Shown piece by piece: positions 13,206-14,501 of a stretch of DNA of 64,000 nt (position 1 is the stretch's first letter; every line of letters begins with the position of its first letter). Position numbers and translations under genes: made by a program. The DNA lies in NCBI GenBank assembly GCA_003281685.1, contig QCBH01000002.1:1-64000 (forward strand). Reading direction: 5' to 3'. This stretch comes from Prochlorococcus sp. AG-347-E23 (GTDB lineage Bacteria > Cyanobacteriota > Cyanobacteriia > PCC-6307 > Cyanobiaceae). The notes under the pieces were generated by a model. The model had not been told where the DNA came from and did not search any database. It saw only the letters and a list, made by a program, of their open reading frames with translations.

Positions 13206-14501
13206 TTAAAAGTGCCATCTAAAACCCCCACCATAAGACTGTTTATCTCCTCCTTCTGCCGAGCCATATTCTGCATTTAAATTAAACATAAAATCTTTTG
13301 TACATACAAAATCAGCTCCCACTTTTATAGAGCCATTATGTTGACCAAGTGTTTTAGAAAAAACTTTAGTATGTGCTGTTGAGCTTTCTGTTAATCCACC
13401 TTTAATACTTCTATGATCATCGTCCACATAGGGATCCATTTCATAATTTAGTGCAAGAGAAGGAACTAAAATCCACTTTCCTCCTTCTATAGGGATTTGC
13501 TTATCTATACTAATTCCTGCTTTAAATAGAAGAGATTCTGCCTGATTTGGATCAATGGTAACTAAATCTCCACTACCAGATTCACTGAATCCATCTTGAG
13601 TATGGGCGGCATAAGCAACTCCTACCGTTGGTTGTAAACGGATTGGGGTTTTCATATTTTTTATATTCTTTTTTATATCCCAAGTACCATTTATCTCTGC
13701 TGTATATCCATTAGTATCGTAAGAAGATGTTGCTGATGTGGTCGAATAATTTCTATTACCTTTGTAATCAAAATCAGATCCACCAATCATTCCTTTTAAA
13801 GTGAATTTATCACTTACTTTCTTAACTCCATAAATAGAATAATGAGTGTTAGTGGAACTTAAACTAGCTGTTGTACTGGAGAAGTTGTAATTATCTAAAT
13901 TAGAAGAACCAACGCCATATGCAACACCAGCTTTCCATCTATCATTGATAGTTTTCTCAACATTAATTGAAGTATTAAATTTTGCGTAATCATATCCTCC
14001 ATAAATGCTATTACCGTTAACAGAAGCAGTTGTATTCTTCACATTGGTATAGACACAATAATCAGAATCTTCAATAACCCAACCATAGTTATTGCATTCT
14101 CCTGCTTTAGCTAAAACCAAGTCTCTATTATTTTTTATTGATGCCAATCCAATATTCTGCATTGCTGCATAAGGTTGGACCCATTCTGTGCTGAGAGTGG
14201 TGGAACTTAAAACCAGATTTAATGTAGATTCTTTTTGAATATTGTAGTCATTTAATGTTCTTCCATCTTCAAGTTGCGTTCCCGCAAAAATTAGTCTCTG
14301 TTGATCAGGGGGGATTCCCTCTTTATCTTGGATTTTTTGCTTTACGTTTTCGATGGTATCGCTTGGTTCTACATCAAGTGTGATAGTTTTATCAGTTAAT
14401 GTTTTTACAAATATCTGCATTGCATTAGCAGCTATAAATAAGCTACTAATTCCTAAGCATATTATTGGTGATGTTTTAGAAAGATACTCTTTGTACCTCA
14501 T
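13206..14501 (-). CDS. Ubiquitin-autotransporter: signal peptide, eukaryotic-type ubiquitin, outer-membrane barrel
   Basis: The 431-residue protein has three parts. Residues 1-27 are a Sec signal peptide ending ...IAANA, with an Ala-Asn-Ala cleavage site. Residues 28-98 are ubiquitin starting exactly at its Met1 (MQIFVKTLTDKTITLDV); against human ubiquitin I count six changes in 71 positions: G10D, E16D, A28Q, K48T, S57N and H68N. Leu8, Ile44 and Val70 of the binding patch remain, but the C-terminal RLRGG is absent, so it cannot be conjugated normally. From about residue 130 to the end, alternating beta strands finishing in RWHF resemble an autotransporter barrel, which would display the ubiquitin outside the cell. 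Codon use is AT-rich like its neighbours. The gene sits between EVE-fragment copies in an accessory island. Confidence 0.9.
   Translation of the reverse strand: MRYKEYLSKTSPIICLGISSLFIAANAMQIFVKTLTDKTITLDVEPSDTIENVKQKIQDKEGIPPDQQRLIFAGTQLEDGRTLNDYNIQKESTLNLVLSSTTLSTEWVQPYAAMQNIGLASIKNNRDLVLAKAGECNNYGWVIEDSDYCVYTNVKNTTASVNGNSIYGGYDYAKFNTSINVEKTINDRWKAGVAYGVGSSNLDNYNFSSTTASLSSTNTHYSIYGVKKVSDKFTLKGMIGGSDFDYKGNRNYSTTSATSSYDTNGYTAEINGTWDIKKNIKNMKTPIRLQPTVGVAYAAHTQDGFSESGSGDLVTIDPNQAESLLFKAGISIDKQIPIEGGKWILVPSLALNYEMDPYVDDDHRSIKGGLTESSTAHTKVFSKTLGQHNGSIKVGADFVCTKDFMFNLNAEYGSAEGGDKQSYGGGFRWHF

Follow-up and report, generated by a model that had tools for sequence, protein, structure and literature searches.

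Ubiquitin as a likely exchangeable head on a Prochlorococcus autotransporter

Ubiquitin is commonly treated as an intracellular tag of eukaryotes. What, then, would a ubiquitin be doing at the beginning of an autotransporter encoded by a cyanobacterium? The question is raised by a gene of Prochlorococcus sp. AG-347-E23, located in a stretch of 64,000 nucleotides that was analysed as a whole and that we call the window. The open reading frame lies on the minus strand (13206–14501) and specifies a product of 431 amino acids. Its first 27 residues (14421–14501, minus strand) resemble a signal peptide, with a charged start, a hydrophobic stretch and, as an earlier note on this DNA had remarked, Ala-Asn-Ala immediately before Met1 of the ubiquitin; this was judged by eye. 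The ubiquitin passenger occupies residues 28–98 (14208–14420, minus strand), matching Pfam PF00240 at residues 30–99 (7.5e-29; 99.8 bits for a cut-off of 25.4). It is identical to what we take to be the human ubiquitin letters at 65 of 71 residues (92%), and the six differences counted in the earlier note are indeed there: G10D, E16D, A28Q, K48T, S57N and H68N. The absence of RLRGG from this head was also correctly seen, residue 71 being followed by SSTTLSTEW.

After the head comes a linker (residues 99–151; 14049–14207, minus strand), which probably comprises a helix. It contains a pair of cysteines, C136 and C149, recognized as a pattern that recurs in 118 of the 120 barrel relatives listed in a database search. 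The remainder, residues 152–431 (13206–14048, minus strand), is an autotransporter beta-domain that runs to a terminal phenylalanine and is supported by the PF03797 match together with a count of amphipathic strands. The match (residues 152–410; 3e-32; 112.8 bits for a curated cut-off of 26) spans positions 3–254 of a 255-position profile, which confirms the barrel-like region ending in Phe that had been proposed at the outset. The same terminal Phe is found in 119 of the 120 listed relatives, while the genomic fusion copy of G010 ends in Leu. Counted on the family alignment of the barrel, amphipathic beta stretches number 11, for 6.6 (sd 2.0) after shuffling, with 29 of 1000 shuffles as high; two other thresholds give 14 (47/1000) and 11 (0/1000), all of these counts being a weak stand-in. 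The barrel profile had no significant match in the PDB (best E 0.075). PADLOC and PHROGs gave no match to the fusion, Rfam none in 20 kb, and promoter-like sites were 11 for 15.3 expected.

The genome (G000; 31 contigs totalling 1.50 Mb, completeness 93%, contamination 0.02) is not the only one to carry such a gene. Of 266 genomes in the genus, six contain PF00240, each time as a ubiquitin-barrel fusion. Searching a database with the barrel alone, we obtained 229 relatives with E no higher than 1e-5; ubiquitin is present in 49 of the 120 that were listed and missing from the other 71. In 44 of these 49 the ubiquitin is preceded by an N-terminal extension that resembles a signal peptide, either the type seen here or a different one, and at least three such types exist among the fusions. 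A sample of 386 genomes from the phylum yielded three with PF00240 over the cut-off, namely that of the window, G594, where the ubiquitin comes from a eukaryote-like contaminant, and G266, where a ubiquitin head follows a signal-peptide-like stretch in a different protein. At E 1e-3 the head had no match among 50,697 records of phages; in another search a single viral contig matched it, at 49% and over the head only. Finally, in the open-licence literature, as seen in titles and abstract beginnings among the matches listed, no description of a ubiquitin-autotransporter fusion was found.

What do the barrels carry when they do not carry ubiquitin? In the 71 listed relatives of this sort, the N-terminal part is at least 100 residues long in 67, shorter in three and cut off in one. 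Some of them bear precomputed labels, such as PF06739 (SBBP) and PF00754. Yet in ten genomic examples with other heads PF03797 alone passed its cut-off, so that most of these heads are still unnamed. By eye, an Ig-like-looking repeat is common to many of them, and one chain, P0084, combines ubiquitin, one repeat of the other passengers and the barrel. More widely, the barrel belongs to a picocyanobacterial family: 47 of 400 genomes, from 12 of 59 genera, have a match, mostly a distant one.

Ubiquitin and the other heads are intermingled on the barrels. We placed 134 barrels on a tree obtained by a quick maximum-likelihood run (LG+G4, SH-aLRT only), taking in 15 of the genomic barrels found and leaving out P0180, which has no junction motif. 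On this tree the label ‘ubiquitin’ or ‘other’ changes 21 times, for a mean of 41.6 when labels are shuffled, and the well-supported branches alone force nine changes. This count is independent of the lineage labels that we derived from residue 19, which are crude: they place G258, P0148 and P0156 with the G000 type, while at synonymous sites G258 groups with the non-G000 type. The barrel of the window is separated by a dS of 0.22–0.29 from five of nine other-headed proteins compared and of 0.74–0.81 from the other four; its dS to the five other genomic fusions is 0.38–0.70. Genome G182 (locus L120, contig C18) has three tandem autotransporter genes whose heads differ; the barrels of two of them are without synonymous difference (dS 0.00). 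When the window is aligned with its head-swapped counterpart in G033, DNA identity is 32–52% up to the junction and 83–99% beyond.

The heads tell a history of their own. Between the ubiquitins of G000 or G095 and those of G258, G143, G010 or G037, dS is saturated (2.4–2.6 or undefined) and dN is 0.065–0.14, for a barrel dS of 0.29–0.71 in the same pairs; between G000 and G095, conversely, dS is 0.10 for the head and 0.66 for the barrel. This mismatch tells us that heads and barrels had separate histories, and the saturated synonymous change together with a low dN, that selection has maintained the head as a ubiquitin over a long time. As near-identical barrels bear other heads elsewhere, ubiquitin is likely to be one of the exchangeable surface heads of a shared autotransporter.

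The surroundings of the gene have to be considered as well. A short repeat, present within the 5′ end of an EVE gene (gene at 15140–15673; repeat at 15229–15246, plus strand), is found again beside the 3′ end of the fusion gene (13113–13130, plus strand), where homology also extends further, and a third time at the edge of the neighbouring block (6593–6610, plus strand). With up to two mismatches these are the three copies present in 64 kb, for 0.03 expected, and the fusion gene sits between those at 13113 and 15229. Five of the six fusion genomes have, no more than about 200 bp from the fusion, either a copy of the repeat or, in G010, the EVE gene; in G258 no copy was seen in the stretch examined. 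Nine copies, that of the EVE gene included, delimit blocks of 1.0–3.3 kb in G006, and in G005 repeats of this sort flank a barrel relative whose head is different. We note that the copies have the same orientation within each stretch, in the window as in L172 (G006), L112, L174 and L173, with blocks of 1–7 kb. All this has the appearance of cargo blocks arrayed one after another by successive integrations at the EVE gene. The sole integrase match in G000, from a search that covered PF00589, is on another contig, and the two repeat copies tested for a hairpin did no better than shuffles. The next block between repeats (8659–12364), which we take to be a Nit1C-like cluster, holds nitrilase, radical-SAM-like, acetyltransferase-like and AIR-synthase-like genes.

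Immediate neighbours add some further observations. Forty-six bp upstream of the fusion is a methyltransferase-like open reading frame of uncertain start (14548–15156, minus strand; Methyltransf_31 at 1.4e-4, below the cut-off). Its homologues are found in 3 of 266 genomes of the genus, all of them fusion carriers: the copy of G095 adjoins the fusion and is interrupted by two stops within the aligned part, and that of G258 is a fragment elsewhere in the genome. Outside the genus, a HemK/PrmC-like class-I methyltransferase lies directly upstream of ubiquitin, on the same strand, at L049, L061, L066, L077, L078, L089 and L097 (Pfam was run on four of the seven). We had considered that a methyltransferase might mark an exported ubiquitin head; this idea no longer enters our explanation and is kept as a lead, because none of these seven actinobacterial-type ubiquitins has a signal peptide by our home-made rule. 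A 96-residue open reading frame beginning with MEKIV was seen near the fusion in two genomes (L112, 4531–4821; L114, 8886–9176).

How would such a protein operate? A ubiquitin placed between a signal-peptide-like start and an autotransporter barrel makes surface display the natural prediction. The start would direct export by the Sec pathway, the beta-domain would insert as a barrel in the outer membrane, and the ubiquitin would pass to the outside, where it would be held on the surface of a Prochlorococcus-type cell. There it may act as a compact module for recognition or adhesion, a partner being bound through the side of F4, K11 and D58, and swapping of heads may alter the set of cells, phages or grazers with which the bacterium interacts. 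The displayed ubiquitin would not be used as a conjugated tag. The E2 domain PF00179 had no match in the six fusion genomes, nor had it any in the control genomes. We hold it probable, on balance, that the protein is of this kind: a displayed recognition or adhesion head, exchangeable on a shared barrel, binding by its F4/K11/D58 surfaces and conjugated to nothing. Display is argued for by the architecture and by the fact that ubiquitin is attached to surface anchors of more than one kind, the choice of a face other than that of I44 by the pattern of conservation. Two points go against display. The predicted proteins of 5 of the 49 listed ubiquitin relatives start at ubiquitin Met1, with no extension. 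Furthermore, ubiquitin is stable and folds fast, so that its passage through the barrel could be blocked and the head might stay in the periplasm.

Those several anchors appear when the search is extended to other bacteria. A scan of 84,980 species left 80 ubiquitin loci, of which six are Prochlorococcus. Its word patterns favour Gln28, and the excess of this residue (67 of 74) is therefore a bias of the search, not a signature. With one locus from the search of viral contigs and a Ruminococcus albus plasmid added to the other 74, there are 76 further loci, 49 of which have a signal peptide ending at Met1 according to our home-made rule (the rule also fires at 135 of 3804 positions taken at random and at 40 of 983 internal Met chosen likewise). 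Ubiquitin is joined to PF03797 in Rhodoferax lacus (L038, where the rule found no start codon), a Sneathiella MAG (L046), Rhodopirellula maiorica (L051), a Chlorobiaceae MAG (L071), Neptunomonas antarctica (L072) and a Burkholderiales MAG (L073). In scans of ubiquitin loci this domain was met in five of seven (L047 and L054 lacking it), then in one of ten of another set. Other anchors also exceeded their cut-offs: IPTL-CTERM in five of ten, and, in the ten that gave the one PF03797, SLH in four and a T9SS tail in two. In a comparison of few sequences, the six barrels just listed resemble that of Prochlorococcus at E 0.003 or worse, which suggests separate ubiquitin-barrel joins; L038, L071, L072 and L073, mutually similar at 28–38%, may represent one single join.

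Some further traits of these loci deserve mention. At seven proteobacterial ones, whichever the anchor, a member of an unnamed 332-residue family lies 10–124 bp from the ubiquitin (L038, 7231–8226; L053, 4780–5772; L055, 4804–5808; L058, 1383–2372; L070, 4788–5780; L072, 4816–5817; L073, 7195–8190). Its assignment to SET domains was abandoned, finding no support in Pfam (seven of seven members scanned), NCBIfam (three of seven) or the PDB. Separately, tandem arrays of at least two ubiquitin genes were noticed at L061, L066, L074, L076, L078, L089 and L093, those of L074 and L076 having signal peptides by the home-made rule.

Where the ubiquitin came from is less evident than it had seemed. The earlier note had a cyanobacterium take it from a eukaryote, a view that our comparison does not support. 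Over its 71 residues the head of Rhodobacter amnigenus (L047) is the consensus of 18 aligned fusions, and the head in L040, a verrucomicrobial MAG, is one residue off, which makes transfer between bacteria at least as likely, though eukaryote-type units one residue from this consensus exist too.

Might ubiquitin be an indifferent passenger, a small, stable and protease-resistant filler, selection bearing on the change of head as such because this masks or alters a phage receptor? Many unlike heads on one barrel, and the island-like position between repeats, would fit. We consider this rather unlikely all the same: where synonymous change between heads is saturated, dN remains at only 0.065–0.14, and ubiquitin is also mounted on other anchors in other bacteria, which together suggest that ubiquitin itself matters.

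If ubiquitin matters, which of its faces is held? In the 49 listed fusion clusters, K48 is present in 39, I44 in 39, R42 in 35, V70 in 27 and L8 in 47. The head of the window has lost K48, as the earlier note had observed, and this is the trait of a subgroup rather than a general one. Similarly, the loss of RLRGG holds for the head of the window and is not uniform: nine of the 49 keep Arg-Leu-Arg at 72–74, five of these with Gly75. Gly76 is present in none of the 49, and Gly75-Gly76 are missing in the protein of the window. Using what we take to be the patch and core residue sets of ubiquitin, the mean minority fraction of the I44 patch is 0.261 in 34 distinct fusion heads and 0.235 in 48 other bacterial heads (those distinct and with a signal peptide by rule, from the 76 loci), for 0.007 in 218 distinct eukaryote-type units, a set obtained from database matches and biased to conserved ubiquitins. 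Random sets of seven non-core sites never reached this excess of the fusions over eukaryotes in 20,000 draws, and the fraction was 0.0077 with the fusions alone. R42, I44, K48, Q49, H68 and V70 vary among fusion relatives and hardly at all in the eukaryote-type units compared. By contrast, the sets centred on F4, K11 and D58 give 0.000, 0.000 and 0.004 in the fusion heads; the 48 other bacterial heads, at 0.096, 0.117 and 0.068, are more variable. These three sets were chosen post hoc, from the table, and shared ancestry of the heads inflates their conservation, which is therefore a lead, not a test. It is more tentatively, and with rather less than even confidence, that we extend the reading beyond the genus: ubiquitins exposed at the surface of bacteria of several phyla may be recognition heads turned outwards on various anchors, binding through F4, K11 and D58 instead of I44 and swapped, in Prochlorococcus, within mobile autotransporters that have many heads.

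A role against other bacteria has a precedent. The secreted ubiquitin of Bacteroides fragilis, BfUbb, inhibits other B. fragilis strains and has a signal peptide that ends at Met1, as the signal-peptide-like start is predicted to do here; it demonstrates that bacteria can be the target of an exported ubiquitin (PMC5705921). The Prochlorococcus head, tethered or cut free, could then inhibit related bacteria in the same way. We find this unlikely. Purified bovine ubiquitin, which is far closer to the Prochlorococcus head than BfUbb is, was inactive on BfUbb-sensitive strains (PMC5705921). The head shares 92% of its residues with human ubiquitin, for 63% with L105, which comes from Bacteroides and is considered a relative of BfUbb; here, moreover, it is fused to a barrel. 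The low density of cells in the open ocean also tells against such a weapon.

The earlier note preferred a decoy, a ubiquitin displayed or shed that would bind the ubiquitin-binding proteins of grazers or hosts, and argued from lost K48 with L8, I44 and V70 kept. In favour of this view are the near identity to the human protein, L8 kept in 47 of the 49 listed fusions and the ability of BfUbb to bind human E1 covalently and to inhibit ubiquitination in vitro (PMC3352274). The argument is weakened by the presence of K48 in most listed fusions and by the drift of the I44 face (R42, I44 and V70, counted above), while Gly76 is kept in none. A ubiquitin with a signal peptide is found as well in the methanogen Methanothrix (L043) and in many other records. 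We know of no obvious link of these organisms to grazers, and deem the decoy quite improbable. As for an artefact, contamination of this sort does occur (an entry filed as Cyanobium, L048 / L128, has its ubiquitin within a eukaryote-like protein and is probably contaminated), but recurrence of the fusion in six genomes and 49 listed database clusters, with alike GC contents for head, barrel and window (0.333, 0.342 and 0.321), makes eukaryotic contamination or chimeric assembly untenable here.

We thus retain the exchangeable, displayed head as the preferred reading. Beyond what the earlier note had seen, the analysis brings in head exchange, the wider family of picocyanobacterial barrels and the presence of ubiquitin on other bacterial anchors. 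If displayed ubiquitin is widespread in bacteria, this protein would have a second life, extracellular and free of conjugation. Prochlorococcus is among the most abundant photosynthetic genera, and its natural variants, with swapped heads on nearly the same barrel, make the role of the ubiquitin head towards cells, phages and grazers open to experiment.

It remains to situate the protein among known systems. With classical (type Va) autotransporters it shares PF03797, a signal-peptide-like start, an N-terminal passenger and a C-terminal beta-domain ending in Phe. Textbook passengers of this type are long beta-helices or enzymes, whereas here we have a 71-residue ubiquitin and, before the barrel, the pair of cysteines found in nearly all listed relatives. 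Barrels of this type have 12 strands and a helix running through the pore; the count of amphipathic stretches given above for the present one is 11. Polymorphic surface proteins combine a constant anchor with a variable head exchanged by recombination; the present family is alike in this respect, its constant part being C-terminal and its heads including ubiquitin. The tycheposons of Prochlorococcus carry cargo between repeats that copy the end of a target gene, with tRNA genes as targets. The blocks described above are similarly bounded by repeats, but their target would be the 5′ end of a protein gene, that of EVE. Finally, BfUbb is a further parallel, a ubiquitin without terminal Gly that a bacterium exports by means of a signal peptide ending at Met1, as is predicted for the Prochlorococcus head; it differs in being a free protein of 76 residues ending in Cys, whereas the Prochlorococcus head is joined to a barrel and is much nearer to human ubiquitin (PMC3352274; PMC5705921).
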